The position numbers and the translations under genes were made by a program. The notes beneath the pieces are model-generated. The model was not told the DNA's origin, made no database searches, and saw only the letters and a list, made by a program, of their open reading frames with translations. This document shows, one piece after another, positions 14,658-54,457 of a DNA stretch of 64,000 nucleotides. Source of the stretch: Parabacteroides sp. TM07-1AC (GTDB lineage: Bacteria > Bacteroidota > Bacteroidia > Bacteroidales > Tannerellaceae). The stretch is from NCBI RefSeq assembly GCF_003480915.1, contig NZ_QUKD01000005.1:1-64000 (forward strand), given 5' to 3'. Position 1 is the stretch's first letter. The number at the start of each line of letters is the position of its first letter.

Positions 14658-17600
14658 ATGAGAAAATCTATTCTATACCTTTTGCTGATGATTTTCTGTC
14701 TATCCGGGCTATATGCCGCCAACAGAAAACCATTCAATTATTACTTTTCACATATCTCAAGTGAAGACGGCTTATCTGAAAGTCAAGTCAAAGTAATCCT
14801 ACAGGATAGTTATGGCTTTATGTGGTTCGGGACTAAAAACGGGTTGAACCGCTATGACGGGACCTCTATCCAGACATTCAATTGCGACGATTATATCACC
14901 GGAACAAGCAATCACAATATATCCGCCCTTTTTGAAGATGAAAATAAAAAGTTGTGGGTAGGTACGGACCGGGGCGTGTATATCTATGATCCGGTTTACG
15001 ACAAATTTTCTTTCATCAACCTGGAGGCTGAGAATGGGGAAAGAATGTTCAACTGGGTAGCCAGAATAACGTCCGACCATGATGGAAATATATGGGTGCT
15101 GATCCCTGACCAGGGCGCTTTCCGTTATAAAGACGAGAAGTTATATTATTATGCCATCACCAACAAGGATAATATCAAACGGGAAAGTACGGAAGCCATC
15201 TGTGTAAAAGAAAACGGCGAGGTGTGGATCGGCACGGCAGGAGTCGGTATCTTCCGTTACAACCCCGAAACAGATTCATTCACTCAATACCATACCGATA
15301 AGAATGGCAACAGCCTGATGGGCGAGCATATCTTTGCCATGTGTGAATATGGCGACTGGATCGCCCTCGCCATTCATGACGGCGAACTGAAAAAATACAA
15401 TCCGGTGACCAACGTCCTGCAGACAGTGAAAGCCCCGGGCGTGCACCATACGATCCTACGGGATGTGGTATGCCTGGACAAAGAAAGACTTTGGGTCTGC
15501 ACGCATGCCGGGTTATTCATTGTCGATGAAGCCCACAATAAAGTAACCCATCTGGAAGAAGACCCGATGCATTCGTACAATCTTTCGGATAATATCATCT
15601 TTTGCATCCATAAAGACCGGGAAGGCGGGATCTGGCTCGGCACAAAATTCGGGGGTGTCAACTACCTGCCGAACCATAAGCTGCTGTTTGAAAAGTATGT
15701 TCCTTCCAGTTCGGAAAAATCGCTCAACACGCGACGCATCCGTGAAATCGTGGAAGCTCCCGACGGCAATATATGGATCGGGACAGAAGATAACGGCATC
15801 AATATACTGAATCCCTCAACCGGCGAAGTGACACAGATAAACTATCCGGCTTCCGACAGGAAAAACCACCTCATGACCCAATCCATGAGCTTCCATGACG
15901 GGAAAATATACTGCGGGCTGTTCAAATACGGGTTGGATATTATCAACATATCCGACCATTCGATCAGGCACCTCACCCACCAACAGTTAAACCTCGACGA
16001 AGAAAGCGTTTATTCCCAGCTAATCGACAGTCGGGGTCGTTTATGGGTTGGAAATGCGTGGGGACTATCCCGGGCAGAAGCTAATTCTTCCAACTTTACC
16101 CGGATTCCTGAGGTTGGGCTCGACTGGATCGTGTGCATGCTGGAAGATAAAAAAGGACGGATATGGTTCGCCTCGATGGGAAGCGGTGTCTGGAAATATA
16201 CACAGGAAGATAACACTTTCAGGAAATATTTTAATGACGAAAAAGATCCCGGCAGCCTGAGTTCAAACTCTGTCAGTTCCATTCTGGAAGACAGCAAAGG
16301 ACAGATATGGTTCTCTACAGACCGGGGCGGTATCTGCCGGTATAATGAGACGGATGATAATTTCACCACTTTCTCCAAAGAGCAGGGATTACCCGATGAT
16401 GTCGCCTATAAAATATTGGAGGATAACAAACATAATTTCTGGTTCGGCACGAACCAGGGACTTGTAAAGTTTAAACCGGAGACCGGGGATGTCCGTGTAT
16501 TCACCGTTCAGGACGGATTGATCGGCAACCAGTTCAACTACAATTCAGGAATTAAGGCGAGCGACGGAAAATTTTATTTCGGGACGATCGACGGACTGAT
16601 CGCCTTTAATCCGAATGACGACCAGCAAAGTGATTCCATTCCTCCGGTTTATATCACCAAATTCAGCATCTATAATAAGGAAGTAACGGTACATACGCCC
16701 AATTCGCCGTTAAGTAAAAGCATCTTGCATACAAACCGGATCGTATTGCCTTACGACCAGTCGAACATCAGTTTTGATGTAGCTATACCTTCTTATTCGT
16801 CTGCACGCAGCAAAGAATGTTTCTATAAAATGGAACCGCTGGACCATAACTGGGTAAAGTCAAACAGCAATCAGAACATATCCTATGCCAAATTACCTCC
16901 CGGCAATTATATATTCCACGTAAAAGCAACACAGGAAGAGGATACAGACGATCAATCGGCTACATCGCTCCGCATCACCATTCTCCCTCCCTGGTGGTTG
17001 TCGACCTGGGCCTACATTGCTTATACGTTACTGGTGCTATGCCTGATATACGGATGGTTCCGCTGGTACAAACGGCGTAAGGAACGGCAGATGGAAGAAA
17101 AACAGAAACTTTTCGAAATAGCCAAAGAAAAGGAACTCTACGAAGCTAAGGTGGAATTTTTTACCGAGATCGCCCATGAGGTACGTACGCCCCTGACACT
17201 GATCAACGGTCCGCTGGAAACGATCCTCGATATGCATATCCAGGACAGCAAGATCACGCGTAACCTGACCGTGATCGCCCAAAACACCAAACGCCTGCTC
17301 GAACTGACCGGGCAGTTGCTTGATTTCCGGAAAGTCGGAGCCAATAAATTCAAGATGGACTTTGCTTGGGTGAATGTCACCACCTTGCTTAAAGATACGA
17401 TCCTGCGCTTCGAGCCGACCATCCTGCAACAAGAGAAAGTACTGTCCGTCGACATTCCGAAAGAAGAGATCACGGCTGCCATCGACCAGGAAGCCGTTAC
17501 CAAGATATTGAGTAATCTGCTGAACAATGCACTGAAATATTCGGCACAGACGATACGGATCGAACTGCGTCAGGAGGAGACCACCTTCAGTATCCGCGTG

Positions 17601-18668
17601 ATCAGCGACGGAAAACGAATACCGGCAGAACTCAGCCAACAGATATTCGAACCTTTCTACCAAATCAACAAGAAAGAGGGAGCATCGGCAGGAGCCGGTA
17701 TCGGTCTGCCGCTCGCCCGTTCGCTCGCCATGCTCCATTCCGGTCAGCTCTGGCTGGATACCAAGGCCACCGACAATTCATTTGTACTGACATTACCTCT
17801 TGTCCAGGAAAAAGTCCGGCAACAGGAAAGTGCCATTATCCAGGAAGAATTCATTTTCCCGGAAGAAGGGACCACAGTTAATGCCGAAGGCCGGAACTAT
17901 ACGCTTCTGCTCGTAGAAGATAATGAGACTATGCGCTCGTTCCTGGCGGAAAAACTTCAGGAACTCTTCATCACGGAAACAGCTCCCGACGGCAAAGTGG
18001 CACTGGAGATTCTGCGTGAACATCACGTAGATATTGTTGTCAGCGACATTATGATGCCTGTGATGAACGGCCTCGAACTATGTAAAGAAATAAAAGCAGA
18101 TATCGAACTCAGCCATATTCCGGTTATTTTCCTGACAGCCAAGAACGATCTCGACAGCAAGATCAATGGTCTGCGCCTGGGAGCGGAAGCATATGTAGAA
18201 AAGCCTTTCTCTTTCAATTACCTGGCGACACAGATATTCTCGCTGCTAAACAACCGGCAGAAAGAACGCGAAGCATTCTCCAAACGTCCGTTCTTCCCGG
18301 TCAATAATATGCAGATGAACAAGGCAGACAAGGAGTTTATGGATCGGATCATTGCAATCATCCACGAAAATATTACGGATGAAAACTTCGGTGTAGAGAG
18401 ACTGGCAGAAATACTTTTCCTGAGCCGCTCCAGCCTGTTGCGCAAGATAAAGGTGTTATCCGGATTGTCTCCGAATGACTTTATCCGTCTCATCCGCCTG
18501 AAGAAAGCAGCAGAACTGATACTCGACGGCCAGCACCGGATCGGGGAAATATGTTACCTGGTAGGTATCAACTCTCCTTCTTATTTCAGTAAGATATTCC
18601 AAAAACAGTTTGGTGTGACACCTAAAGATTTTGAAAAGCAGAATCAAGGTATCCCCAATGAGGAATGA
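14658..18668 (+). CDS. Hybrid two-component system sensor/regulator (HTCS)
   Basis: A 1336-residue one-protein phosphorelay typical of Bacteroidetes glycan sensing. In order: signal peptide (1-20); a periplasmic sensor made of two-component propeller repeats (about 30-690, many WFGT, WVGT and WIGT blades); a Y_Y_Y domain (about 700-777); one membrane helix (about 780-803); HisKA with TEIAHEVRTPL (phospho-His about 839); HATPase with NLLNNALKYS and GAGIGLPLARS; a receiver domain with LLVEDNE and VVSDIMMPVMNG (Asp about 1127); and an AraC-type DNA-binding domain (about 1227-1336). All catalytic residues look intact. It is divergent from the hexuronate transporter and convergent with a LacI regulator 8 bp away. 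Its ligand is probably an oligosaccharide; the neighbouring sugar-acid genes suggest a pectin-type signal, which is inference. Confidence 0.95.
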   Translation: MRKSILYLLLMIFCLSGLYAANRKPFNYYFSHISSEDGLSESQVKVILQDSYGFMWFGTKNGLNRYDGTSIQTFNCDDYITGTSNHNISALFEDENKKLWVGTDRGVYIYDPVYDKFSFINLEAENGERMFNWVARITSDHDGNIWVLIPDQGAFRYKDEKLYYYAITNKDNIKRESTEAICVKENGEVWIGTAGVGIFRYNPETDSFTQYHTDKNGNSLMGEHIFAMCEYGDWIALAIHDGELKKYNPVTNVLQTVKAPGVHHTILRDVVCLDKERLWVCTHAGLFIVDEAHNKVTHLEEDPMHSYNLSDNIIFCIHKDREGGIWLGTKFGGVNYLPNHKLLFEKYVPSSSEKSLNTRRIREIVEAPDGNIWIGTEDNGINILNPSTGEVTQINYPASDRKNHLMTQSMSFHDGKIYCGLFKYGLDIINISDHSIRHLTHQQLNLDEESVYSQLIDSRGRLWVGNAWGLSRAEANSSNFTRIPEVGLDWIVCMLEDKKGRIWFASMGSGVWKYTQEDNTFRKYFNDEKDPGSLSSNSVSSILEDSKGQIWFSTDRGGICRYNETDDNFTTFSKEQGLPDDVAYKILEDNKHNFWFGTNQGLVKFKPETGDVRVFTVQDGLIGNQFNYNSGIKASDGKFYFGTIDGLIAFNPNDDQQSDSIPPVYITKFSIYNKEVTVHTPNSPLSKSILHTNRIVLPYDQSNISFDVAIPSYSSARSKECFYKMEPLDHNWVKSNSNQNISYAKLPPGNYIFHVKATQEEDTDDQSATSLRITILPPWWLSTWAYIAYTLLVLCLIYGWFRWYKRRKERQMEEKQKLFEIAKEKELYEAKVEFFTEIAHEVRTPLTLINGPLETILDMHIQDSKITRNLTVIAQNTKRLLELTGQLLDFRKVGANKFKMDFAWVNVTTLLKDTILRFEPTILQQEKVLSVDIPKEEITAAIDQEAVTKILSNLLNNALKYSAQTIRIELRQEETTFSIRVISDGKRIPAELSQQIFEPFYQINKKEGASAGAGIGLPLARSLAMLHSGQLWLDTKATDNSFVLTLPLVQEKVRQQESAIIQEEFIFPEEGTTVNAEGRNYTLLLVEDNETMRSFLAEKLQELFITETAPDGKVALEILREHHVDIVVSDIMMPVMNGLELCKEIKADIELSHIPVIFLTAKNDLDSKINGLRLGAEAYVEKPFSFNYLATQIFSLLNNRQKEREAFSKRPFFPVNNMQMNKADKEFMDRIIAIIHENITDENFGVERLAEILFLSRSSLLRKIKVLSGLSPNDFIRLIRLKKAAELILDGQHRIGEICYLVGINSPSYFSKIFQKQFGVTPKDFEKQNQGIPNEE

Positions 18669-18676
18669 AAAAAAAT

Positions 18677-19693
18677 TCATCTTTTCCGGGAAGTTTCCCG
18701 CACTGACAAATGGGTAGGTACAACGATCTGCCGGGGCTTTTCCCGTTTTTTTATCTGCTTAAGAAGGAGGTTACAGCATTCCTCTCCCATCTTATAGGTC
18801 TGATGAGTGACAGCTGTCAGGGCTGGTTCCACATAGTTGGAATGAAGCTCGTCGGTATAACCGATCAGGGCAATATCAGCAGGGATGCGGAACTGATGCT
18901 TTTTAATCTCTTTCATGGCAGCAAAAGCCAGTGTGTCATTCATTGCCAGGATGGCATCCGGCGGTTCCGGCAATGAGAGCAACCGGCAACAACCTTCCCG
19001 CCCCTCTTCATAGGTCATCTTCTTACAGACAATCAACTCTTCTACGACTGGCAAACCTTCCTCTTTCAATGCTTCCATATATCCGTCACGACGCTGCTGC
19101 ACGATCGCCAAATGATCCGAACCACCCAAGAAAGCCACCCGTTTCGATCCCGTCTCCAACAGATGCCTGGTAGCCACCCGGGCCGACTCCTTATTATCGG
19201 CCACCACCGAAGGGATCGTACCTGTCAGGCAGACACGGTCAAAAAAGACCAGCGGAATATCCATATCCTCCAGAGAAAGAAAATGGGAATAATCGGTCGT
19301 TTCCTGTGAAAGACAGGCCAATATACCCTCCACCCGCATGTTTACCAGGTCTTCCACACAATGCAGTTCCTGTTCGTACTGTTCATAGGAAGAAGTGATA
19401 ATAACGGAATACTCGTTCTTACGCGCCACGTCATTGATACCGCTGATAATCGATGAATAGAAATGAGTAACGATATCCGGCACGATGATGCCGATAATAC
19501 GCGGTGTATTTTTCAACAGACTCAACGCAAACGGGTTCGGCCGGTAATTCCATTCTTCGGCAAGCGCCTTCACCCGTTCCCGCATTTCGGGACTGATCTC
19601 GTAGCTGTCATTCAGCGCACGCGATACAGTAGAAACGGAAACACCCAGTTCTTTGGCCAGGTCTTTCAGCGATATGTGTCTTTTCTTAGGCAT
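18677..19693 (-). CDS. LacI-family transcriptional regulator
   Basis: 338 residues from the ATG at 19693. The longer start at 19717 would lie inside the -7 promoter element, so I reject it. The helix-turn-helix ISLKDLAKELGVSVSTVSRALN and hinge region occupy residues 1-60; the rest is a periplasmic-binding-protein-like effector domain (IIGIIVPDI, VVADNKESARVATRHLLETG, PDAILAMNDTLAFAAM). It is divergent from the L-galactose-type operon and is the natural candidate for its repressor, with the sugar or an intermediate as inducer. The repeat array at 19811 lies between them. Confidence 0.9.
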   Translation of the reverse strand: MPKKRHISLKDLAKELGVSVSTVSRALNDSYEISPEMRERVKALAEEWNYRPNPFALSLLKNTPRIIGIIVPDIVTHFYSSIISGINDVARKNEYSVIITSSYEQYEQELHCVEDLVNMRVEGILACLSQETTDYSHFLSLEDMDIPLVFFDRVCLTGTIPSVVADNKESARVATRHLLETGSKRVAFLGGSDHLAIVQQRRDGYMEALKEEGLPVVEELIVCKKMTYEEGREGCCRLLSLPEPPDAILAMNDTLAFAAMKEIKKHQFRIPADIALIGYTDELHSNYVEPALTAVTHQTYKMGEECCNLLLKQIKKREKPRQIVVPTHLSVRETSRKR

Positions 19694-19714
19694 TACAATT
19701 CCGATTACTTCCGG

Positions 19715-19722
19715 CAAATATA
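19715..19722 (-). promoter_or_regulatory. -7 promoter element of the LacI gene
   Basis: TATATTTG on the minus strand matches TAnnTTTG, 22 bp from the chosen start. No clear -33 element. Confidence 0.5.
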
Positions 19723-19810
19723 CTTATTTCCGGCAGAAAACCGGCTTTTCTTCATCACATCCGTTCAAACTCTCAACCGATTTCCAACAGATCCTCCGGC
19801 TGTTTCAATT

Positions 19811-19876
19811 TGTTTCACCCCGATGAAACACTTGTTTCTCCTAGGTGAAACAGTTGTTCCATCGGGGTGAAACAGT
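19811..19876. repeat. Array of three 22-bp dyad-symmetric units (array 2)
   Basis: Units start at 19811, 19833 and 19855, exactly 22 bp apart. Each has a left half-site TGTTTC or TGTTCC and a right half-site GAAACA separated by 8 bp, i.e. an imperfect palindrome. Left halves read TGTTTCACC, TGTTTCTCC, TGTTCCATC; right halves GATGAAACA, GGTGAAACA, GGTGAAACA. Units 1 and 3 are inverted copies over 15 bp (19811-19825 with 19860-19874). A lone TGTTTCA precedes the array at 19801. It lies between the divergent LacI gene and the sugar operon, about 80 bp before the operon's -7 element. It could be an operator, but equivalent arrays elsewhere are not at promoters. Confidence 0.8.
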
Positions 19877-19954
19877 TTCGACCACCGCAGCATAGTGCAA
19901 ACCTTTGCGTAGATTTTTCAGCACAAAACGGCTATAAGCAAACCATAAAAGCTA

Positions 19955-19962
19955 TACATTTG
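19955..19962 (+). promoter_or_regulatory. -7 promoter element of the L-galactose-type operon
   Basis: TACATTTG matches TAnnTTTG and lies 29 bp before the ATG at 19992. Confidence 0.5.
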
Positions 19963-19991: not shown

Positions 19992-20924
19992 ATGAACTAC
20001 TCATATTGTGGAAAAACAGGGATGAAAGTACCCGTTCTGAGCTTTGGAGCCTCTTCGTTGGGCAGTGTCTTTCATGAAACACGGGAAGCGGAAAGCATCC
20101 AGGCAGTATTTACTGCCGTCGAAAACGGGATGAACTTTATCGACGTCTCCCCTTACTACGGACATTACAAGGCGGAAACGGTATTGGGAAAGGCACTGAA
20201 AGAAATTCCCCGCGACGCTTTTATGCTTTCAACAAAAGTCGGCCGCTACGGAAAAGACGGCGTTAATACCTGGGACTATTCCGGCAAACGGGCTACCGAA
20301 AGCGTATATGAAAGCATGGAACGGCTGCATTTGGACTACATCGACCTGATCAATGTACACGATATCGAATTTGCCGACCTCAACCAGGTGGTGAACGAAA
20401 CATTGCCGGCATTGGTGGAATTACGCGAAAAAGGAATCGTAAAGCATGTCGGCATTACCGACCTTCAACTGGAAAACCTGCAATGGGTAATCGACCGCGT
20501 CCCCGAAGGAACGGTAGAAACCATTCTCAATTTCTGCCACTACTGCCTGAACGACGATAAGCTGGCCGACTATTTCGATTATTTCGAATCCAAACAGATC
20601 GGTATCATCAATGCTTCTCCCCTTTCGATGGGATTATTGTCGCAACGGGGTGTTCCCGACTGGCATCCGGCACCGGCAGCACTGGTAGAAGCCTGCCAAA
20701 AAGCAGTGCAACACTGCGCTTCCAAAGGTTACCCGATAGAAAAACTGGCTATGCAATACTCAGTAAGTAACCCGAGAATCGCAACCACCCTGTTCAGTTC
20801 GGCAAATCCGGAGAATGTCCGGAAAAACATCCAATATATAGAAGACCCGATCGACTGGGACCTGGTTCGTGAAGTACAGGAGATTATCGGCGACCAAAAG
20901 CGGGTCAGCTGGTCGAACTCCTGA
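19992..20924 (+). CDS. Aldo/keto reductase, probable L-galactose 1-dehydrogenase
   Basis: A 310-residue TIM-barrel oxidoreductase with the aldo/keto reductase tetrad Asp51, Tyr56, Lys82 and His123 (IDVSPYYG, STKVGRYG, NVHDIEF). Many stretches parallel plant L-galactose dehydrogenase as I remember it: FGASSLGSVF, VHDIEF, ETLPAL, DRVPEGTVE, NASPLSMGLLS and PDWHPA. L-galactose dehydrogenase oxidises L-galactose with NAD to the lactone; L-fucose is a possible alternative since it differs only at C6. It is first in an operon with a lactonase, importer and alcohol dehydrogenase, the same order as the L-galactose pathway described in Bacteroides vulgatus. Confidence 0.82.
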   Translation: MNYSYCGKTGMKVPVLSFGASSLGSVFHETREAESIQAVFTAVENGMNFIDVSPYYGHYKAETVLGKALKEIPRDAFMLSTKVGRYGKDGVNTWDYSGKRATESVYESMERLHLDYIDLINVHDIEFADLNQVVNETLPALVELREKGIVKHVGITDLQLENLQWVIDRVPEGTVETILNFCHYCLNDDKLADYFDYFESKQIGIINASPLSMGLLSQRGVPDWHPAPAALVEACQKAVQHCASKGYPIEKLAMQYSVSNPRIATTLFSSANPENVRKNIQYIEDPIDWDLVREVQEIIGDQKRVSWSNS

Positions 20925-20956
20925 CCGGAAAACAAATATCCTTTAAAGAAAGTACC

Positions 20957-21880
20957 ATGAACAGAAAGATTATAGATGCCCATTCCCATCTTTGGCTCAG
21001 GCAGGATACGGTAGTCGACGGATTGCCGATACGGACACTCACTAACGGACGTTCACTCTTTATGGGTGAAATCCGGCAGATGGTTCCTCCGTTTATCATC
21101 GACGGCAGGAACACGGCAGAGATATTCCTGTCGAACATGGATTATGCACAGGTTTCGGCAGCCGTCGTCACCCAAGAGTTTATCGACGGCATGCAAAACG
21201 ATTATTTGCTGGAGGTCGCCAACCGCTATCCGGATCGCTTCTTTGTCTGCGGTCTCTGCGAATTTCGCCGTCCCGGCTATGCGGCACAGGCACGCGAACT
21301 GGCTGCCCGCGGATTCAAGGCTATCAAGGTTCCGGCACAACGCCTTTTACTCCAGGAAGGGCGGGTCTGTCTGAATGGTGACGAAATGATGGAAATGTTC
21401 CATTTTATGGAAAACAAAGATATGATCCTCTCCGTCGACCTGGCTGATGGCGACAGCCAGACCGGTGAACTGGAAGAGGTGATTCAGGAATGCCCCGGAT
21501 TAAAAATTGCGATCGGACATTTCGGTATGGTTACCCGACCGAACTGGTTGGCGCAGATCAGCCTGGCACGTTACCCGAACGTCCGCATCGAATCCGGAGG
21601 TATCACCTGGTTGTTCAACGACGAATTTTATCCTTTCCCCGGTGCCGTTAAAGCGATACGCGAAGCAGCAGACCGGGTAGGCATGGAGAAGCTGATGTGG
21701 GGATCGGATTATCCCCGTACGATTACGGCTATCACCTACAGGATGTCATACGATTTCATCCTGAAGACCGAGGAACTGACAGAACAGGAAAAGGACCTCT
21801 TCCTGGGAGAAAATGCAGCCACTTTCTATGGATTCAAAAAGCTGATCGAATTACCTTATATCAAAAACATGTCCGAATAA
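20957..21880 (+). CDS. Amidohydrolase-family sugar lactonase (probable L-galactonolactonase)
   Basis: A 307-residue cytoplasmic amidohydrolase-superfamily protein (amidohydrolase 2, COG3618-like). Metal-site motifs seen are DAHSHLW near the N-terminus, IGHFGM in the middle and MWGSDYPRT near the C-terminus, where the Asp is the usual catalytic residue. COG3618 enzymes include lactonases for L-fucono- and L-galactonolactones. It starts 32 bp after the dehydrogenase whose lactone product it would open to L-galactonate. Substrate assignment rests on operon context. Confidence 0.78.
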   Translation: MNRKIIDAHSHLWLRQDTVVDGLPIRTLTNGRSLFMGEIRQMVPPFIIDGRNTAEIFLSNMDYAQVSAAVVTQEFIDGMQNDYLLEVANRYPDRFFVCGLCEFRRPGYAAQARELAARGFKAIKVPAQRLLLQEGRVCLNGDEMMEMFHFMENKDMILSVDLADGDSQTGELEEVIQECPGLKIAIGHFGMVTRPNWLAQISLARYPNVRIESGGITWLFNDEFYPFPGAVKAIREAADRVGMEKLMWGSDYPRTITAITYRMSYDFILKTEELTEQEKDLFLGENAATFYGFKKLIELPYIKNMSE

Positions 21881-21903
21881 ACACGACCTAATACAATCAT
21901 ACC

Positions 21904-23154
21904 ATGAAACAGAAAAACTACATGCTACCGCTGGCACTGATATTCAGCCTTTTCTTCCTATGGGCGATCAGCAGCAACCTGTTGCCGACCATGATCCGGC
22001 AGCTGATGAAAACCTGCGAACTGAATCCGTTCGAGGCATCATTTACCGAAACGGCCTACTGGCTGGCTTACTTCATCTTCCCGATCCCGATCGCCATGTT
22101 CATGAAACGGTATAGTTACAAGGCTGGTATCGTTTTCGGACTGTTCCTGGCTGCTTTCGGAGGTTTATTGTTCTTCCCAGCTGCCCTGTTAAAAGAGTAC
22201 TGGGCATATCTCAGTATCTTTTTCATTATCGCGACAGGTATGTGTTTTCTGGAAACGGCAGCCAATCCTTACGTAACCGTATTGGGTAATCCGGAAACGG
22301 CTCCCCGACGGCTGAACCTGGCACAGTCGTTCAACGGATTAGGAGCCTTTATCTCGGCCATGTTCCTCAGTAAACTGGTATTAAGCGGGAACCACTATAC
22401 ACGTGAAAGTCTGCCCGTCGATTATCCCGGAGGTTGGGATGCGTACATCCAGTTTGAAACGGATTCAATGAAACAGCCATACCTTCTATTAGCACTTTTA
22501 TTAATCATTATCGCAGTTGTTTTCATTGTTTCCAGACTACCCCGTATCCAGGACGAAGAACATACAGGAGAGAAAGAGGGAAAGCTGATCGACTTCGGTG
22601 TGCTGAAACGTTCGCATCTGCGCTGGGGAGTGATCGCACAGTTCTTTTATAATGGAGGGCAGACAGCGATCAACAGCCTTTTCCTGGTATACTGTTGCAG
22701 TTATGCCGGGTTATCGGAATCGGTCGCGACCACTTTCTTCGGTCTGTATATGCTGGCTTTCCTGCTGGGACGATGGATCGGCACCCTGCTGATGGTCCGC
22801 TTCCGTCCGCAGGACATGTTGCTGGTTTATGCACTGCTCAATGTCGTACTTTGCGGAGTGATCGCCTTATGCGGCGGAATGGTCGGGTTATATGCGATGC
22901 TGGCTGTATCGTTTTTCATGTCGATCATGTATCCGACACAGTTCTCGTTGGCGTTAAAAGGACTGGGCGACAATACCAAGAGCGGCTCGGCTTTCCTGGT
23001 GATGGCAATCGTCGGAAATGCCTGTCTGCCCCAGCTGACGGCTTACGTGATGCATCATTTCGAAGCTGTTTATTATATCGCTTATCTGATCCCGTTGGTT
23101 TGCTTCCTTTTCTGTGCTTACTACGGGTGGAAAGGCTATAAAGTGGTCGATTAA
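21904..23154 (+). CDS. FucP-family MFS sugar:proton symporter
   Basis: A 416-residue membrane transporter with about 12 helices. CFLETAANPYVTVLGNPETAPRRLNLAQSFNGLGA is shared in large part with E. coli FucP, the L-fucose:H+ symporter, which is known also to carry L-galactose. The gene begins 23 bp after the lactonase and sits before the L-galactonate-type dehydrogenase, so the cargo is most likely the operon's entry sugar. Located in the inner membrane. Confidence 0.87.
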   Translation: MKQKNYMLPLALIFSLFFLWAISSNLLPTMIRQLMKTCELNPFEASFTETAYWLAYFIFPIPIAMFMKRYSYKAGIVFGLFLAAFGGLLFFPAALLKEYWAYLSIFFIIATGMCFLETAANPYVTVLGNPETAPRRLNLAQSFNGLGAFISAMFLSKLVLSGNHYTRESLPVDYPGGWDAYIQFETDSMKQPYLLLALLLIIIAVVFIVSRLPRIQDEEHTGEKEGKLIDFGVLKRSHLRWGVIAQFFYNGGQTAINSLFLVYCCSYAGLSESVATTFFGLYMLAFLLGRWIGTLLMVRFRPQDMLLVYALLNVVLCGVIALCGGMVGLYAMLAVSFFMSIMYPTQFSLALKGLGDNTKSGSAFLVMAIVGNACLPQLTAYVMHHFEAVYYIAYLIPLVCFLFCAYYGWKGYKVVD

Positions 23155-23175
23155 TTTATAATATATATAATGTAT

Positions 23176-24192
23176 ATGAAAGCAATACAAATTCCCGTTC
23201 CTGCAACACTGCAGGTAGTCGACATAGCAAAGCCGGAAGTAAAAAACGGCGAAGTTCTTCTGAAAATTAAGTTTGTCGGTTTTTGCGGCTCCGACCTGAA
23301 CACATTTCTGGGGCGTAATCCAATGGTCAAGCTTCCCGTTATCCCCGGTCATGAGGTCGGAGCTGTGATTGAAGCCGTAGGTCCCGGGGGTCCTGGCGGA
23401 TTCGAACCGGGCATGAGTGTTACCGTAAATCCTTACACAAACTGCGGTAAATGTGCCGCCTGCCGCAACGGACGGGTAAATGCCTGCGAACATAATGAAA
23501 CATTCGGCGTACAGCGTAACGGTGCAATGGGAGAATATCTCGCTCTGCCCTGGCAGAAAGTCATTCCGGCTCCCGGCATTTCTCCCCGTGACTGTGCCCT
23601 GATCGAACCGATGAGCGTAGGATTTCATGCTGTCTCCCGCGGACAAGTCACCGACATCGACACCGTTCTAGTTATCGGCTGCGGTATGATCGGTTGCGGA
23701 GCGATTGTACGTGCTGCATTAAGAGGTGCAACAGTGATCGCCATGGATCTGGATGATGAAAAACTGGAACTGGCCAAACGCATCGGTGCCCGTTACACCA
23801 TCAACTCACAGACCGAAAATGTACATGAACGTTTACAGGAAATGACGGACGGCCTGGGACCGGATGTTGTCATCGAAGCGGTAGGAAGTCCGGCAACTTA
23901 TGTAACGGCGGTAAACGAAGTCGCTTTCACCGGACGGGTAGTATGCATCGGCTATGCGAAAAGCGAAGTAACCTTTCAGACCAAATATTTCGTACAGAAA
24001 GAGTTGGATATCCGGGGTTCACGCAACGCACTGCCGGAAGATTTCAGGGCTGTAGTACGTTATCTTCAGCAGGACAGTTGTCCGCGGGAAGAACTGATAT
24101 CTCGGATTGTCACCCCCGAAGAAGCATTTGCCGCCATGCAGGCATGGAGCGCTGCTCCCGGTAAAGTATTTCGTATTCTTGTAAAGTTCTGA
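23176..24192 (+). CDS. Zinc-dependent alcohol dehydrogenase, probable L-galactonate 5-dehydrogenase
   Basis: A medium-chain dehydrogenase of 338 residues. The catalytic-zinc segment PVIPGHEVGA, the structural-zinc cysteines in CGKCAACRNGRVNAC, and the NAD-binding VIGCGMIGCGAI are all present. The family (LgoD/YjjN, RspB-like) includes the enzyme that oxidises L-galactonate to D-tagaturonate. Tagaturonate is precisely the substrate of UxaB, encoded two genes on. I chose the second ATG (23176); the first (23170) adds only two residues. Confidence 0.8.
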   Translation: MKAIQIPVPATLQVVDIAKPEVKNGEVLLKIKFVGFCGSDLNTFLGRNPMVKLPVIPGHEVGAVIEAVGPGGPGGFEPGMSVTVNPYTNCGKCAACRNGRVNACEHNETFGVQRNGAMGEYLALPWQKVIPAPGISPRDCALIEPMSVGFHAVSRGQVTDIDTVLVIGCGMIGCGAIVRAALRGATVIAMDLDDEKLELAKRIGARYTINSQTENVHERLQEMTDGLGPDVVIEAVGSPATYVTAVNEVAFTGRVVCIGYAKSEVTFQTKYFVQKELDIRGSRNALPEDFRAVVRYLQQDSCPREELISRIVTPEEAFAAMQAWSAAPGKVFRILVKF

Positions 24193-24231
24193 CATATAAA
24201 AAATTTAATTATCTTCGCAAGGCTACAAGAT

Positions 24232-24324
24232 GGCACACTGATAACACAGATTAAGCAGATGACCACAGATCTTTTTTAATAATATATCTGCGATAATCAG
24301 CTTAATCTGTGTTATCTGCGTGCC
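24232..24324. repeat. REP-like long inverted repeat inside the operon
   Basis: A perfect 16-bp inverted repeat (24241-24256 with 24300-24315), extended by GGCAC/GTGCC at the outer ends (24232-24236 and 24320-24324). The loop has a T-run and internal copies of CAGAT/ATCTG. Sequences like ATCTGTGTTATCTGCG recur as intergenic elements in Bacteroides genomes, as I recall. It lies in the only large gap (185 bp) of the operon and could stabilise or partly terminate the mRNA. An A/G-rich repetitive stretch (AGAGAAT-like) follows at 24340-24369. Confidence 0.7.
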
Positions 24325-24377
24325 ATTTAGCAGACTCTGAATAGAGAATAGAGAATCAAGAATCGAGATAAGTTATC

Positions 24378-26897
24378 ATGAAAAAGCTAATCAATCTAAT
24401 CGTATTTTTTCTGATCGTCAGTCTGAATGGCTGGGCGCAGGAAGCCGCTGAAGTAATCCGGGTGGCATGTGTAGGAAACAGTATTACATTTGGGGCCGGG
24501 ATTGCCAACCGCGACCGCGACAGTTACCCTTCGGTTCTCGGACAAATGCTCGGAAAGAAGTATGAAGTACGGAACTTCGGCTTTAGTGCCCGTACTATGC
24601 TCATGAAAGGGGATCGTCCTTACATGAAGGAACAAATGTTTAAAGATGCTCTCAGCTATAATCCCGACATCGTTATAATCAAGCTGGGGACAAATGATTC
24701 CAAATCGTTCAACTGGAAATACAAAGCCGGACTTCCCGGAGATATTCAGACGATGATCAACGCGTTTAAGGCAATCCCGTCAAAACCAAAGATCTATCTT
24801 TGTTATCCGCCCAAAGCCTATGTCAGCGATGCCAGTATTAACGACAGTATCATTGCAGCCGGTGTTATTCCAGTGATTGAACAGGTAGCGAAAAGGAATA
24901 AATTACCAATCATTGATTTACATACGGCATTGAGCGGCATGCAGGAACATTTTCCGGATAATGTCCATCCCGATCCGGTCGGTGCACATAAGCTCGCCGA
25001 GACCGTTTACAAAGCAATCACAGGCAAAGAAACTTCTCACCGGATGCAGGCTTTTCCCGGTCTGAAAAGCGAATGGAACGGATGCGACCGTTACGATTTC
25101 CAGTTCAAGGGACGCGATGCGATCGTGGTTGTCCCTAAACAGGCGGCCAAAGGAAATCCGTGGATATGGCGACCGGCTTTCTTCAATGCTTTCCCCAGCG
25201 TAGACAAGGCCTTACTGGAAAAAGGATTTCATGTGGTTTATTATGATGTGACACATTGTTATGGGAACCCGCGTGCAGTAGCACTAGGTACGGAGTTCTA
25301 CCATTATATGAAAGATTGGTACGGACTTTCCCCGAAAGTGACCCTGGAAGGATTCAGCCGCGGTGGTTTATATGCTTTGAACTGGGCTGCCAAAAACACA
25401 GACAAGATCGCCTGCATCTATATCGACGCCCCGGTTTGCAATGTATTCAGCTGGCCGGGAAGAAAGAATGCAGAGTTGTGGAACGACTTGTTGAAAGAAT
25501 GGGACCTGACAGACGAAGAGATGAATTCGTTCAAAGGTAATCCGATCGACAATCTGGAACCGTTGGCAAAAGCCGGAATCCCGATCATCAGCGTTTGCGG
25601 AGATGCCGACAAAGTCGTTCCGTTCAAGGAGAATATGGATATAGTACGTTCCCGCTACCTGGCTCTGGGTGGTCCGGTAGAGGTAATTATCAAACCGGGC
25701 GTAGACCATCATCCCCACAGTTTGGAAAATCCGGAACCGGTTGTGGACTTCATCCTTCGCCACCAACCGGAATATGAGAAATACCTGCATTACAACGTGC
25801 GCGGCAGCCTGCAAAACTCGTTTGTCAAGTTCGAGAAAGAACGTAAAGCACGTGTCGCCTTTCTGGGCGGTTCTATCACAGAGATGAACGGCTGGAAGAA
25901 CATGATCGAAAAACAACTGCAACAACGTTTCCCTTATACGACTTTCGAATTTGTAGAAGCCGGCATCGGTTCTACCGGAACGACTCCGGGTTCCTTCCGA
26001 ATGAAAAATGATATTCTCTCGAAAGGAAAAATAGACCTGCTTTTTGTGGAAGCAGCCGTGAACGACCATACAAACCATTTCACTCCATTGGAACAGGTTC
26101 GTGGCATGGAAGGGGAAGTACGCCATGCATTACTGAGTAATCCGGAAATGGATATCGTGATGTTACACTTCATCTACGATCCGTTTATCCCGATGGTTGC
26201 TAAAAAACAGCAACCGGACGTCATACTGAACCACGAACGGGTGGCAAACCATTATCTGATCCCTTCTGTCAACCTGGTTCAGGAAATAGGCGAACGGATG
26301 CAGGACGGCGAGTTCACCTGGGAACAGTTCGGCGGAACCCATCCGCTACCGTTCGGACATAAATTCTATGCCGCAGCCATCAACCACCTCTTCGATACGA
26401 TGTGGAAAGGAATCACTCCCGACAGTCCGGTCGTTGCCCACGAAATACCTGCACAACCACTCGATGCATACAGTTATTATGGCGGCGACTTTATCGACCT
26501 GAAAGAGGCTAAACTGAACAAAGGCTGGAAATACGTTCCTTCCTGGCGTGCGGATAATACGTATGAAAAGAGAAGAGGTTTCGTTGATGTTCCCATATTG
26601 GAAGCTACTCGTCCGGGCGACAAATTGACACTCGACTTCACGGGAAAAGCGATCGGTATCTTCTGTACACCGGGTCCGACAGCCGGAATCCTTGAATACA
26701 GCATCGACGGTACCCCATTCAAAAAGCTCGATACGTTCACCGAATGGAGTAAATACCTTTATATTCCCTGGGTATATATGCTGGAAACAGAATTAGACGA
26801 CACTGCCCATAAGCTGGTACTTCGTATCTCGAAAGAAAAGAATCCCGATTCTTTAGGTACGGAATGTCAGATACGAAACTTCGTTGTAAACAAATAA
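24378..26897 (+). CDS. Secreted multidomain esterase: SGNH + alpha/beta-hydrolase + SGNH-like
   Basis: 839 residues after a signal peptide (cleavage near GWAQEA). Domain 1 (about 26-215) is a GDSL/SGNH hydrolase: GNSITFG (Ser35), RNFGFS, GTNDS (Asn106), DNVHPDP (Asp194, His197). Domain 2 (about 235-465) is an alpha/beta hydrolase: GFSRGG (Ser327), CGDADKVVP (Asp409 or 411), DHHPHS (a His near 445). Domain 3 (about 485-675) is a second SGNH-type domain: LGGSITEMNGW (Ser499), AVNDHTN (Asn562), GGTHPLPFG (His655), but the Asp expected three residues before His is Gly. A beta-sandwich closes the protein. Such esterases remove acetyl or similar groups from plant glycans. Gene order puts it between the L-galactonate dehydrogenase and uxaB. 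Confidence 0.82.
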   Translation: MKKLINLIVFFLIVSLNGWAQEAAEVIRVACVGNSITFGAGIANRDRDSYPSVLGQMLGKKYEVRNFGFSARTMLMKGDRPYMKEQMFKDALSYNPDIVIIKLGTNDSKSFNWKYKAGLPGDIQTMINAFKAIPSKPKIYLCYPPKAYVSDASINDSIIAAGVIPVIEQVAKRNKLPIIDLHTALSGMQEHFPDNVHPDPVGAHKLAETVYKAITGKETSHRMQAFPGLKSEWNGCDRYDFQFKGRDAIVVVPKQAAKGNPWIWRPAFFNAFPSVDKALLEKGFHVVYYDVTHCYGNPRAVALGTEFYHYMKDWYGLSPKVTLEGFSRGGLYALNWAAKNTDKIACIYIDAPVCNVFSWPGRKNAELWNDLLKEWDLTDEEMNSFKGNPIDNLEPLAKAGIPIISVCGDADKVVPFKENMDIVRSRYLALGGPVEVIIKPGVDHHPHSLENPEPVVDFILRHQPEYEKYLHYNVRGSLQNSFVKFEKERKARVAFLGGSITEMNGWKNMIEKQLQQRFPYTTFEFVEAGIGSTGTTPGSFRMKNDILSKGKIDLLFVEAAVNDHTNHFTPLEQVRGMEGEVRHALLSNPEMDIVMLHFIYDPFIPMVAKKQQPDVILNHERVANHYLIPSVNLVQEIGERMQDGEFTWEQFGGTHPLPFGHKFYAAAINHLFDTMWKGITPDSPVVAHEIPAQPLDAYSYYGGDFIDLKEAKLNKGWKYVPSWRADNTYEKRRGFVDVPILEATRPGDKLTLDFTGKAIGIFCTPGPTAGILEYSIDGTPFKKLDTFTEWSKYLYIPWVYMLETELDDTAHKLVLRISKEKNPDSLGTECQIRNFVVNK

Positions 26898-26903
26898 AAT
26901 AAA

Positions 26904-28343
26904 ATGAAAGAATTAAACAGGCAGAACGCTCCGGTCACCATCCGCCCGGAACGTATCATACAGTTTGGAGAAGGTAATTTCCTTCGGGCATTTGTGGACT
27001 GGATCATCTGGAATATGAATGCCCAAACGGACTTCAATAGCAGTGTTGTAGTTGTTCAACCCATTGAGAAAGGGATGGTCGACATGCTCAAGAAGCAGGA
27101 TAACCTGTATCATGTCAACCTGCAAGGTTTGGACAAAGGGAAAACAGTCAACAGTATCGAACTGATCGACGTAATCAGCCGTTCACTGAATCCTTACACC
27201 GATTTCGAAGCATTCATTCAATTGGCGGAACAGCCGGAAATGCGTTTCGTGATCTCCAACACGACCGAAGCAGGCATCGTTTTCGATCCGTCCTGCAAAC
27301 TAAATGATGCACCAGCCTCCTCTTACCCCGGTAAACTGACACAGTTACTTTACCACCGTTTCAAAACATTCGACGGGGATAAGAACAAAGGATTAATCAT
27401 TTTCCCCTGCGAACTGATCTTCCTGAACGGACACAAACTGAAGGAGACTATTTACCAATACATCGATCTCTGGCAACTGGGCGAAGCATTCAAAACCTGG
27501 TTCGAAGAGGCCTGTGGTGTTTATGCCACGCTGGTAGACCGTATCGTTCCCGGTTTTCCACGAAAGGAGATCGATACCATCAAAGAAAAACTCCAATATA
27601 ACGATAACCTGGTGGTACAGGCTGAGATATTTCATTTATGGGTGATCGAAGCACCACAGGAAATATCCAGGGAATTTCCCGCCGATAAAGCCGACCTGAA
27701 TGTATTGTTCGTTCCTTCCGAAGCTCCTTACCACGAAAGAAAGGTTACTTTACTGAACGGCCCTCACACCGTCCTTTCACCCGTTGCTTTCCTTTCCGGA
27801 ATCGACATCGTACGGGATGCCTGCCAGGATGAAGTGATCGGAAAATATATCCGCAAAGTGATGTTCGAAGAACTGATGGAAACGTTGAACCTGCCTAAAG
27901 CAGAACTGGAACAGTTTGCAAATGATGTACTGGACCGCTTCAACAACCCGTTTGTCGATCACCAGGTCACTTCCATCATGCTGAACTCTTTCCCCAAATA
28001 CCAGACACGCGACCTGCCGGGGCTGAAAGAATACCTGAAACGCAAAGGTGTTTTGCCGGAAGGACTAGTATTGGGACTGGCAGCGATCCTTACCTATTAT
28101 AAAGGAGGCAAACGTGAGGACGGAACCGAGATCGTACCCAACGATGATCCGAAGACAATATGCCTGATGAAAGAACTTTGGGCAACCAACTCTACACGGA
28201 CCGTGGCTGAAAATATCCTGGCTGTGGATGAGATTTGGGGCGAAGACCTCAACCGGATTTCCGGGTTAACAGAGCGGGTTATTTATTACCTGGATGCGAT
28301 TCAGGAAAAAGGTATGAGAGAGGTAGTAAAAGAGATTCTCTGA
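26904..28343 (+). CDS. uxaB: Tagaturonate reductase (altronate oxidoreductase)
   Basis: A 479-residue mannitol-dehydrogenase-family enzyme that reduces D-tagaturonate to D-altronate with NADH. Family signatures are RIIQFGEGNFLRAFVDW at the N-terminus (dinucleotide binding), VISNTTEAGI, IFPCELI, and ERKVTLLNGPHTVLSPVAFLSG. Starts 6 bp after the esterase gene; its TGA overlaps the ATG of uxaA by one base (TGATG), indicating translational coupling. In the usual galacturonate pathway UxaC supplies tagaturonate; here the upstream L-galactonate dehydrogenase could also supply it. Confidence 0.93.
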   Translation: MKELNRQNAPVTIRPERIIQFGEGNFLRAFVDWIIWNMNAQTDFNSSVVVVQPIEKGMVDMLKKQDNLYHVNLQGLDKGKTVNSIELIDVISRSLNPYTDFEAFIQLAEQPEMRFVISNTTEAGIVFDPSCKLNDAPASSYPGKLTQLLYHRFKTFDGDKNKGLIIFPCELIFLNGHKLKETIYQYIDLWQLGEAFKTWFEEACGVYATLVDRIVPGFPRKEIDTIKEKLQYNDNLVVQAEIFHLWVIEAPQEISREFPADKADLNVLFVPSEAPYHERKVTLLNGPHTVLSPVAFLSGIDIVRDACQDEVIGKYIRKVMFEELMETLNLPKAELEQFANDVLDRFNNPFVDHQVTSIMLNSFPKYQTRDLPGLKEYLKRKGVLPEGLVLGLAAILTYYKGGKREDGTEIVPNDDPKTICLMKELWATNSTRTVAENILAVDEIWGEDLNRISGLTERVIYYLDAIQEKGMREVVKEIL

Positions 28344-29830
28344 TGAAAAAGTATATCCAAATAAATCCGGCTGATAATGTCATCGTTGCCATAGACCCGT
28401 TATCAGCCGGAGATCAGATTGAGCTTGGTGATCTGACGATCACTATCCGGGAAGAGATCCCAACCGGGCATAAAGTGGCTTTGAAATATTTCACCACCGG
28501 TGATTTTGTTATCAAATATGGTTTTCCCATCGGCCACGCGCGGAACGATATCCCTGCCGGAGCCTGGGTAAACGAGAAAAATATAAAAACAAACCTGGAC
28601 GGGTTACAGGATTACACCTGGCAACCACAGGACACAACATTGCATATTCCCGACCGAGGATTGACCTTTAACGGCTATCGACGTAAAAACGGAGAAGTCG
28701 GCATACGTAATGAGATATGGATCCTGCCGACAGTCGGTTGTGTAAACGGTATCGTCAACCAACTAGCAGAAACTCTCCGACGGGAAACGGATGGAAAAGG
28801 TGTGGATGCGATCGTGGCTTTTCCCCATAATTACGGCTGTTCCCAGTTAGGTGACGACCATGAGAATACCCGTAAAATTCTCCGGGACATGGTGAAACAT
28901 CCGAACGCCGGTGCAGTACTGGTGGTCGGACTAGGCTGTGAAAACAATCAGCCGGATACTTTCCGTGAGTTTCTGGGAGAATACGATACGGAACGTGTTC
29001 GCTTTATGGTCTGCCAAAAAGTGAAAGACGAGCAGGAAGAAGGTATGAAGCTACTGCGCGAATTATATGCCATAGCCTCAACCGACCAACGTACGCCGGT
29101 TCCTTTCAGCGAACTGCGTATCGGTTTGAAATGCGGCGGTTCGGATGGTTTCTCCGGTATTACCGCCAATCCGCTATTGGGTGTATTTTCCGATTTTCTG
29201 GTTGCACAGGGAGGAACGACTGTTTTGACGGAAGTCCCCGAAATGTTCGGTGCCGAAACATTATTAATGAATCGTTGCGGTACAGAAGATTTATTCAACA
29301 AGACCGTCCGCCTTATCAACGACTTCAAAGCCTATTTCCTGGAAAACAAACAACCGGTCTATGAAAATCCTTCTCCCGGAAACAAAGCCGGAGGTATCTC
29401 TACACTGGAAGAAAAATCACTCGGCTGTACACAGAAGTCAGGTAAATCAGGAGTCAAGGATGTCCTTACGTACGGAGAGCGTTTATCCGCTAAAGGTTTA
29501 AACCTGTTGAGCGCCCCGGGAAACGACCTGGTAGCCAGCACGGCATTAGCCGCCTCGGGTTGCCACATGGTACTTTTCACCACCGGACGGGGAACGCCTT
29601 TCGGAACATTTATCCCCACTGTCAAGATTTCAACCAACACTGCTTTATCAGAAAACAAACCCGGCTGGATCGACTTTAACGCCGGAACTTTGGCGGAAGG
29701 TGAAGCAATGGAACCCCTCGCCGAACAGTTTATCCGGTTCATACAGGATATTGCCGGAGGAAAACAGACCAACAATGAACGGAAAGGATATCGGGAGATT
29801 GCTATATTTAAGTCCGGGGTAACGCTATAA
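28343..29830 (+). CDS. uxaA: Altronate dehydratase
   Basis: A 495-residue enzyme that dehydrates D-altronate to 2-keto-3-deoxygluconate. The N-terminal SAF-like domain (about 1-90) includes IPTGHKVAL. The long C-terminal domain carries YRRKNGEVGIRNEIWILPTVGCVN, HNYGCSQLG, VGLGCENNQ and KCGGSDGFSG, with the conserved Cys residues of the family. The frame is open upstream to 28235, but the start at 28343 gives the family N-terminus and couples to the uxaB stop. It is the last gene of the operon; the kinase and aldolase that would follow are not in this window. Confidence 0.93.
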   Translation: MKKYIQINPADNVIVAIDPLSAGDQIELGDLTITIREEIPTGHKVALKYFTTGDFVIKYGFPIGHARNDIPAGAWVNEKNIKTNLDGLQDYTWQPQDTTLHIPDRGLTFNGYRRKNGEVGIRNEIWILPTVGCVNGIVNQLAETLRRETDGKGVDAIVAFPHNYGCSQLGDDHENTRKILRDMVKHPNAGAVLVVGLGCENNQPDTFREFLGEYDTERVRFMVCQKVKDEQEEGMKLLRELYAIASTDQRTPVPFSELRIGLKCGGSDGFSGITANPLLGVFSDFLVAQGGTTVLTEVPEMFGAETLLMNRCGTEDLFNKTVRLINDFKAYFLENKQPVYENPSPGNKAGGISTLEEKSLGCTQKSGKSGVKDVLTYGERLSAKGLNLLSAPGNDLVASTALAASGCHMVLFTTGRGTPFGTFIPTVKISTNTALSENKPGWIDFNAGTLAEGEAMEPLAEQFIRFIQDIAGGKQTNNERKGYREIAIFKSGVTL

Positions 29831-53695: not shown

Positions 53696-54457
53696 TCATT
53701 TTATAATCTGAATATACCGCTGCAATGCTTCTTTTTCAGCCTCGGCTACCAAGAGATAAAAAGCATTCGGTTCATGCTCTGTATGTGACTTTTCCAAAGC
53801 CTTATAATATTGCAGTTTCTTGTCATTATCACCTTTCAGCGTAACAAGGATATAACCATGCAGTAAAAGGTAAAGGTTCATCAAAAGACGACATGTTCGC
53901 CCGTTTCCGTCGATAAACGGATGGATCCTGACAAGTTCGTCATGTAAGTACCCTGCTATTATTACCGGGTGGATGCCCTCCTTCTCCATTTGCTGAAACT
54001 TTAAAATAAAATCTTCCATTTGTTTCTCAATGAGATAGGGTTGAGGCGGTATGTGAGTACTCCCCGTTATCAGTACCGGCACAGTCCGATAACGACCGGC
54101 ATTCTCCCGGTTAATGCCATGCAGCACGATAGCGTGGATTTCCTTAATTGTCCGTTCGCTTATCTCTATTTTTTGCTGGGCAATATCTTTGATAAAATCG
54201 ATGGCCTGCGCATGGTTGATAGCTTCCAAGTGCTCCCGCATAGATTTACCGGATATGGTTACACCCTCATTCACAACAAGGGCCGTCTCCTGCAATGTAA
54301 GCGTATTTCCTTCTATTCGGTTACTTTCATAGGTATACTCCATTTCGAGAGCATCCGCTATCTTTTTTAAGGCTTCCGGGGGCAATGGACGCAAAGTAGC
54401 TAGTTCCGCTTTAAGAGAATCCACTTCTTGCAATACGATACTTAGATCTTCAATCAT
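53696..54457 (-). CDS. Fic-family protein (probable adenylyltransferase)
   Basis: 253 residues. The Fic core motif is intact: IHPFIDGNGRTCR (about 178-190), with the catalytic His and the Gly-Asn-Gly-Arg anion-binding loop. An N-terminal inhibitory motif SNRIEG (about 45-50) matches (S/T)xxxE(G/N), placing it among Fic proteins that inhibit themselves with an N-terminal helix. Fic enzymes transfer AMP (or other phosphate groups) to protein hydroxyls. No antitoxin or winged-helix domain adjoins, so the target is unknown. Confidence 0.88.
   Translation of the reverse strand: MIEDLSIVLQEVDSLKAELATLRPLPPEALKKIADALEMEYTYESNRIEGNTLTLQETALVVNEGVTISGKSMREHLEAINHAQAIDFIKDIAQQKIEISERTIKEIHAIVLHGINRENAGRYRTVPVLITGSTHIPPQPYLIEKQMEDFILKFQQMEKEGIHPVIIAGYLHDELVRIHPFIDGNGRTCRLLMNLYLLLHGYILVTLKGDNDKKLQYYKALEKSHTEHEPNAFYLLVAEAEKEALQRYIQIIK

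Follow-up and report, generated by a model that had tools for sequence, protein, structure and literature searches.

A predicted L-galactose to 2-keto-3-deoxygluconate operon recurs among gut Bacteroidales and, in a Parabacteroides lineage, was probably assembled from a LacI-linked cassette and a resident galacturonate trunk

Introduction

Can a gut Parabacteroides carry L-galactose all the way to 2-keto-3-deoxygluconate (KDG) from one operon, and does that operon serve this sugar alone? The question is raised by seven genes in a stretch of 64,000 nucleotides from Parabacteroides sp. TM07-1AC (contig NZ_QUKD01000005.1, positions 1 to 64,000; hereafter the window), which an earlier note had read as an unbroken L-galactose route under one regulator. 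L-galactose is a minor but widespread sugar and a constituent of rhamnogalacturonan II. It is contained in corn xylan (PMC4491172) and also occurs in red-algal polysaccharides (PMC4396506).

The reading preferred here, with a probability of roughly 0.85, is that the operon imports L-galactose and converts it to KDG, that its last two genes (uxaBA) are shared with galacturonate breakdown, that the locus was assembled stepwise and that the cassette is under the control of a divergent LacI regulator; the families, the synteny, the copy number in relatives and the conservation of the operator come directly from sequence, and the activities, the inducer, the order of events, and copy number and expression in the window strain are inferred. 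Such a complete operon recurs among gut Bacteroidales and was probably assembled more than once. Its probable sources in the lineage of the window are a LacI-linked cassette and a resident galacturonate trunk, and a LacI operator with a fixed promoter spacing is predicted.

Gene content and predicted route

The regulator and the operon comprise the following genes.

18677-19717, minus strand: LacI-family regulator (Pfam LacI and Peripla_BP), divergent to the operon; likelier ATG at 19693 by inspection
19992-20924, plus strand: aldo-keto reductase (AKR), L-galactose 1-dehydrogenase by prediction (Aldo_ket_red; match to PDB 7lh6, 554 bits)
20957-21880, plus strand: lactonase, predicted amidohydrolase-superfamily L-galactonolactonase (Amidohydro_2; model near cog3618 structures)
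21904-23154, plus strand: FucP-type sugar:H+ symporter, probable L-galactose importer (MFS_1; TIGR00885 fucP above cut-off)
23170-24192, plus strand: zinc-dependent dehydrogenase (ZnDH), probable L-galactonate 5-dehydrogenase giving D-tagaturonate (ADH_N/ADH_zinc_N)
24378-26897, plus strand: secreted three-domain esterase, SGNH, alpha/beta hydrolase and SGNH/CE17-like (GDSL and alpha/beta hydrolase Pfam matches)
26904-28343, plus strand: UxaB, tagaturonate reductase, D-tagaturonate to D-altronate (Mannitol_dh; PRK03643 above cut-off)
28343-29830 (from the ATG), plus strand: UxaA, altronate dehydratase, D-altronate to KDG (SAF, GD_AH_second, GD_AH_C)

The substrate and route proposed earlier are supported by the match of the AKR to L-galactose dehydrogenase structures. 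It was identical to 7lh6, which bears that name, at 234 of 310 positions and matched three further chains of the same name at 288-290 bits. These three chains are plant enzymes, which agrees with the kinship to plant L-galactose dehydrogenase that had been claimed. Residues D51, Y56, K82 and H123 of the AKR, presumably its catalytic tetrad, were conserved at 98% or more in 81 aligned rows. The same level was found for H9, H11, H188 and D251 of the lactonase (80 rows), assumed to be metal ligands, and for C39, H61, E62 and C92/C95/C98/C106 of ZnDH (77 rows), assumed to be zinc ligands. The importer scored 341 bits against TIGR00885 fucP (cut-off 280) and 313 bits against the stricter PRK10133, for which 427 are needed. 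UxaB scored 655 bits against the tagaturonate reductase model PRK03643 (cut-off 359). UxaA has SAF and GD_AH domains and is genetically linked to UxaB; against the galactarate dehydratase equivalog it reached 330 bits, below the cut-off of 731.

In the proposed route, the FucP-type symporter would bring in L-galactose, which the AKR would oxidise to L-galactonolactone. The amidohydrolase would open the lactone to L-galactonate, and ZnDH, for which L-galactonate is the probable substrate, would oxidise this at C5 to D-tagaturonate. UxaB would then reduce D-tagaturonate to D-altronate, and UxaA would dehydrate D-altronate to KDG.

The order, positions and strands first given for these genes (LacI on the minus strand, the rest on the plus strand) were confirmed by coordinates, and the families are as stated by Pfam and NCBIfam. 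Gaps from the AKR through uxaA were 32, 23, 15, 185, 6 and -1 nt, with the uxaB stop and the uxaA start overlapping as TGATG. The short gaps described earlier are therefore present throughout, except for the 185 nt between ZnDH and the esterase, which hold a palindromic insert. Judged by the AKR, the closest titled genomes were Parabacteroides faecis (95%) and P. goldsteinii (89%); the AKR of a further genome, G055, was 98% identical.

Recurrence of the operon and known systems

Loci around the best 80 of 565 AKR relatives were compared; these are not an even sample. The order AKR-lactonase-(FucP)-ZnDH, hereafter the cassette, was found in nearly all of them, with less visible on short contigs (e.g. 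L057, L058, L061), and because of this recurrence the gene order is no chance arrangement. A locus was considered joined if UxaB lay within 10 kb of the AKR, which was the case in 21 of the 80. The esterase stood between the two in 2 joined loci (L001, L002); 9 had FucP and no esterase, and 10 had neither. UxaB was just 35-43% identical in L071 and L073. Among 393 genomes of the order, the AKR was found in 30 and UxaB in 58 (E 1e-80). UxaB was present in 24 of the 30 AKR genomes versus 34 of the 363 others (Fisher p = 3e-17, not corrected for kinship), and by coordinates the two genes lay within 10 kb of each other in 5 of those 24. The genus of P. goldsteinii was represented by 38 genomes, of which 5 had the AKR (E 1e-60), 13 had UxaB (E 1e-60) and 17 had the esterase (E 1e-100); UxaB was present in all 5 that have the AKR.

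Quick trees were made for the AKR and UxaB. In the AKR tree the joined state was strongly clustered: 16 joined rows including the window fell in one supported branch of 17, and 6 joined loci (L009, L048, L063, L071, L073, L075) fell outside it. The joined state changed 5 times in this tree, a count that omits 8 loci with a short downstream flank; 37 ungrouped rows are uncounted in its group table. The UxaB tree, made without duplicate loci and without the partial L073, placed the window clade (5 rows) with resident Bacteroides/Parabacteroides UxaB and not with most other joined copies; at least 3 changes were needed by its supported branches. Long branches were L080 in the AKR tree and L071, L063, L103 and L032 in the UxaB tree. 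Given these groupings, cassette and uxaBA were probably joined more than once. A single origin of all joined operons was rejected on the same grounds.

The L-galactose pathway of Phocaeicola (Bacteroides) vulgatus (Bvu0219/0220/0222) was reportedly described by Hobbs et al. in 2014. By its description, the window shares with it an AKR, an amidohydrolase lactonase and a zinc dehydrogenase, which probably acts on L-galactonate to give D-tagaturonate; in the window these genes also adjoin the esterase and uxaB-uxaA. A joined form is found in Phocaeicola plebeius DSM 17135, which has one joined (L067) and one unjoined (L020) locus. The AKR of L067 is 7lh6 itself (310 of 310 identical) and is 75% identical to that of the window, and the order AKR-lactonase-FucP-ZnDH-UxaB-UxaA is common to both. 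Unlike in the window, neither a LacI relative nor an esterase was found in the 20.9-kb locus L067, and its UxaB branches elsewhere in the UxaB tree. About 8.5 kb upstream of its operon lies a protein matching the beta-porphyranase 4awd (710 bits). In the available text of PMC12316285, Bacple_01668-01689 of the P. plebeius porphyran locus are highly induced on porphyran, and from gene order the L067 operon appears to lie among them.

In Luteolibacter sp. LG18, the lguABCDEF genes cluster an L-galactose dehydrogenase, an L-galactonate dehydrogenase, a tagaturonate reductase and an altronate dehydratase (PMC12632266, available text, as for the following statements on this strain). That cluster differs in also acting on L-glucose and in including an aldolase for 2-keto-3-deoxy-6-phosphogluconate (KDPG), and a lactonase and FucP are unnamed in that text. 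Apart from LguA, its enzymes are, according to the authors, mostly distant from others of the same activity. The earlier claim of a fusion to the tagaturonate and altronate steps thus holds for the window; the fusion is not peculiar to it, being found in 21 of 80 loci, including L067, and in print for Luteolibacter. The predicted biochemistry is that of the known P. vulgatus pathway, and the joined form is known in P. plebeius and Luteolibacter. New are the place of a resident esterase in the operon, the shared trunk in a single copy, the probable history of insertion and the footprint of the operator. In the literature covered, which excluded most subscription papers, no report of such an operon in Parabacteroides, or of Parabacteroides with L-galactonate, was found. 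L-galactose dehydrogenase was paired with tagaturonate reductase in the Luteolibacter paper and in the available text of a Flammeovirga genome paper, where the mention is unrelated.

Shared trunk and assembly of the locus

Of the 19 genomes searched, 18 had a single UxaB match and P. plebeius had three; in P. goldsteinii the sole uxaB copy is the one in the joined operon. UxaC was present in 16 of 16 genomes and, by coordinates, did not adjoin the joined uxaB in the 7 that have a joined operon (G001-G005, G028, G055). The neighbours of uxaC in G001 are genes for a KDPG aldolase and a PfkB kinase, and similar-looking genes stand beside uxaC in G055 and G028 (by eye). Because uxaB is single-copy and uxaC stands apart from the joined operons, uxaBA would have to serve galacturonate too in most of these relatives, and the same is inferred for the window strain. 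In these relatives uxaBA would then be the galacturonate trunk as well, and KDG kinase and KDPG aldolase are encoded with uxaC elsewhere. The self-contained L-galactose set that had been proposed is probably not one, and an extra uxaBA copy dedicated to L-galactose is ruled out for the relatives by the single-copy uxaB. If the trunk is indeed shared, loss of uxaBA would halt growth on galacturonate in P. goldsteinii.

Two further genes of the window bear on how the locus was built.

12996-14441, minus strand: ExuT/GudP-type major facilitator superfamily (MFS) transporter, probable hexuronate importer (MFS_1; TIGR00893 below cut-off)
14658-18668, plus strand: hybrid two-component regulator (Pfam domains), between the MFS transporter and LacI

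A 64% relative of this transporter adjoins uxaC in L103. Thirteen loci of the genus (L120-L132) carry the esterase without an adjoining cassette, and in 7 of them (L121-L126, L131) a window-type MFS transporter is its divergent neighbour. L121 and L123 have the order DUF6051-MFS-esterase; L095 has DUF6051-MFS-LacI-cassette-esterase-uxaBA. In G055 the order is GH29-LytTR-DUF6051-MFS-LacI-AKR-lactonase-FucP-ZnDH-esterase-UxaB-UxaA, and in G028 the MFS transporter does not adjoin LacI. Since the esterase diverges from a window-type transporter in 7 of 13 loci that have no adjoining cassette, LacI and the cassette were probably inserted between a resident transporter and esterase. The starting state would have been a hexuronate transporter/esterase pair with uxaBA behind the esterase; LacI and AKR-lactonase-FucP-ZnDH would then have entered between the pair. 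The two-component regulator is probably a later addition, because it occupies the same place in the window and L001 and is not in L002 or L095. Retention of the original esterase promoter through the insertion was not supported, as the upstream sequences differ.

Glycosidases and the esterase

A GH29 enzyme at 1950 of the window had been named as a nearby feature of the operon. Among its 17 solved relatives 5k9h was best, fucosidases were present, including three alpha-1,3/4-fucosidase chains, and neither an exo-alpha-L-galactosidase nor 7snk or 7ljj was present. In L131, a GH29 of this type (together with GFO genes) adjoins the transporter and esterase, with no L-galactose cassette next to them. 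As a source of L-galactose the enzyme was therefore not supported: its relatives are of the fucosidase type, and it matches the GH29 type of the joined locus L063 only weakly, at 37 bits.

In other lineages, release of L-galactose is likely to be paired with its catabolism. In L063 the GH29 gene ends at the start of the AKR gene, and its best solved relatives were 7snk (275 bits, named a fucosidase) and 7ljj (274 bits, named an exo-alpha-L-galactosidase). GH29 of this type was found in 13 of the 80 AKR loci, the query itself counted, with 38-78% identity to the query. Genome G042 has the order GH95-esterase-UxaB-UxaA, with GH95 in place of the cassette; on another contig, four GH29 genes are followed by a divergent cassette (AKR 62%). 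The L-galactosidase 4ufc was the nearest match of the GH95, at 1090 bits. The TxNxN motif is preserved in the GH95, and its threonine is tied to L-galactose in PMC4491172. Relatives of this GH95 were found in only 3 of the 80 AKR loci (27-38% identical), and a scripted search did not detect the active-site motif in these. On the second contig of G042 (L104:2741-8983), the four GH29 genes stand in tandem directly upstream of an AKR-ZnDH-lactonase cassette. The GH29 and GH31 genes at L003:5233-9960 immediately precede a joined operon for the route from L-galactose to KDG; they hint at a glycan that contains alpha-xylosides, for example corn xylan or xyloglucan.

The esterase has 839 residues, a signal-like N-terminus (by inspection) and three hydrolase motifs. 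Across 45 sequences, S327, D411 and H444-H445 of the middle domain and S499 and H655 of the last were invariant (roles assigned by inspection), and S35 and H197 of the first domain, which L127 and L129 lack, were conserved at 90% or more. In shorter relatives (e.g. L121, L123) the alignment begins only at about residue 218-230. A structure model with a mean pLDDT of 89.8 matched 6hfz, a two-domain mannan acetylesterase (CE17 of Roseburia), with a TM-score of 0.79 by target length, and alpha/beta hydrolases more weakly. By sequence, 6hfz matches residues 490-684 and the Pfam alpha/beta hydrolase about 270-446; the likeness to 6hfz in fold and sequence thus concerns the C-terminal part, and the window protein differs in having a further SGNH and alpha/beta hydrolase domain in front. 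Against the AxeA1 acetylxylan esterase model NF042968 it scored 244 bits (cut-off 700), over model positions 267-459 only. With a signal sequence, three esterase domains and an occurrence without an adjoining cassette, it was rejected as a step of L-galactose breakdown. It is likely to deacylate plant glycans outside the cytoplasm, probably in the periplasm, and is the probable older resident of the locus; the GH95 pairing in G042 leaves open a role on L-galactose-bearing glycans.

LacI operator and promoter spacing

Two sites were annotated between lacI and the AKR gene.

19895-19910, no strand assigned: predicted LacI operator GTGCAAACCTTTGCGT, with two mismatches to ACGYAANNNNTTRCGT
19955-19962, plus strand: TACATTTG, Bacteroides-type -7 box TAnnTTTG, 51-52 nt from the operator centre

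In 25 of the 80 loci, a LacI gene lay no more than 3 kb from the AKR. The exact palindrome ACGYAANNNNTTRCGT stood before the AKR in 24 of these 25, the copy in L048 having one mismatch, versus 1 of 54 loci without LacI. It sat 91-115 nt upstream of the AKR, and the fetched loci, 2.11 Mb in total and partly overlapping, contained it 30 times without mismatch. A TAnnTTTG box, the Bacteroides-type -7 consensus, stood at the spacing given above in all 28 upstream regions examined, those of the 25 LacI-linked loci and of the window, L095 and L096; these loci are related and not independent. The divergent LacI thus probably governs the cassette through the predicted operator. The constant upstream position may indicate activation; repression of the divergent lacI fits too. 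Because the operator of the window has two mismatches and lies beside an insert, LacI control may be altered in the window strain. Of the single regulator claimed for the operon, the divergent LacI is present; its hold on all genes is uncertain, with the operator degraded and esterase-uxaBA behind a long gap.

It is conceivable, though on present evidence doubtful, that in this Parabacteroides lineage the only genes for tagaturonate reductase and altronate dehydratase have moved under the L-galactose cassette and LacI, with uxaC-eda-kdgK elsewhere without that operator, so that growth on galacturonate, the main sugar of pectin, depends on the L-galactose operon. LacI would then act at the fixed-spacing upstream site, possibly as an activator, and respond to an inducer that both routes share, for example D-tagaturonate. 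No operator motif within one mismatch was found in the uxaC loci L133-L135.

The insert carries, between lacI and the AKR operator (window 19810-19877), three GTTTCACCNNGGTGAAAC-type palindromes with an exact 22-nt spacing. A comparable 22-nt-spaced array of other sequence was seen by eye at the same place in P. faecis L001, and G055, G028 and P. goldsteinii have none. These palindromes (at 19812, 19834 and 19856) were rejected as the LacI operator: their motif is missing from this place in the 80 loci bar a weak match in L001, whereas ACGYAANNNNTTRCGT is present in 24 of 25.

In the gap between ZnDH and the esterase, window 24220-24336 is an imperfect palindrome with 56-nt arms; it is absent in L001, L002, L095 and L096 and resembles a mobile repeat. 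Directly 3' of the ZnDH gene (window 24192-24225), the window and these four loci have a conserved TACCTTCG-like element, in the window as TATCTTCG, a possible internal promoter for esterase-uxaBA.

Points against and rival explanations

Several observations weigh against the preferred reading. The lactonase model is mediocre (mean pLDDT 72.7); it resembles the cog3618 amidohydrolases 4dlf and 4do7, its best match was 4i6k, a probable pyrone-dicarboxylate hydrolase, and the protein scored 25.9 bits against the L-fucono-1,5-lactonase family NF052480 (cut-off 400). Six of the 30 AKR genomes had no UxaB match at E 1e-80. In the other 6 of the 13 esterase loci the expected pair was not seen: L120, L127-L129 and L132 have other neighbours, and the contig of L130 is too short to tell. 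L048 has the order LacI-AKR-lactonase-ZnDH-UxaB-UxaA without the esterase, and given this locus the locus of the window could also have been assembled in another order. No source of L-galactose is visible in the window: a relative of the GH95 of G042 is absent, and L063-type GH29 gives there just the match mentioned above. Its operator, as described, is degraded.

In the best-surviving alternative, an unlikely one, the locus serves mainly galacturonate or other hexuronates and carries the L-galactose cassette as a passenger, the expression of which is weak or wrong in this strain owing to the damaged operator. The single-copy uxaBA of the relatives and the co-occurrence of the hexuronate-type transporter and esterase without an adjoining cassette would fit this too. 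Against it, uxaBA lies in the same strand run as the cassette, and the enzymes and importer of the cassette are intact; their identity to those of G055, G028 and P. goldsteinii is 88-100% (80-81% for the lactonase in the last two), so the cassette has been kept.

An oxidative L-fucose route (AKR, lactonase, FucP) with uxaBA as mere galacturonate neighbours is very improbable, even though the FucP family is named after fucose, the window GH29 is fucosidase-like and four tandem GH29 genes precede the AKR in L104. The AKR is close to named L-galactose dehydrogenases, the cassette stands beside a porphyranase in P. plebeius, and the kinetics of Bvu0219 on L-galactose reportedly also speak against L-fucose. 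ZnDH and uxaBA suit a C6-hydroxylated acid; since L-fuconate has no O6 and cannot become tagaturonate, the presence of uxaBA favours L-galactose. Least probable of all is that the AKR and ZnDH act mainly on L-glucose and L-gluconate as in Luteolibacter LG18, where both sugars are substrates of LguA and LguD, and LguA groups with BVU_0219 in a tree: the same text has BVU_0219 and BVU_0222 using L-glucose and L-gluconate very inefficiently, and the required 5-keto-L-gluconate 4-epimerase was not seen among the window proteins scanned, a weak point as it lies outside the LG18 cluster too.

Other features of the window

Window 48974-53299 encodes a protein of 1441 residues with a GH5 domain at residues 593-867 and a CBM_4_9 match behind it, otherwise without a Pfam match. 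It is followed at 53696-54457 by a Fic-domain protein.

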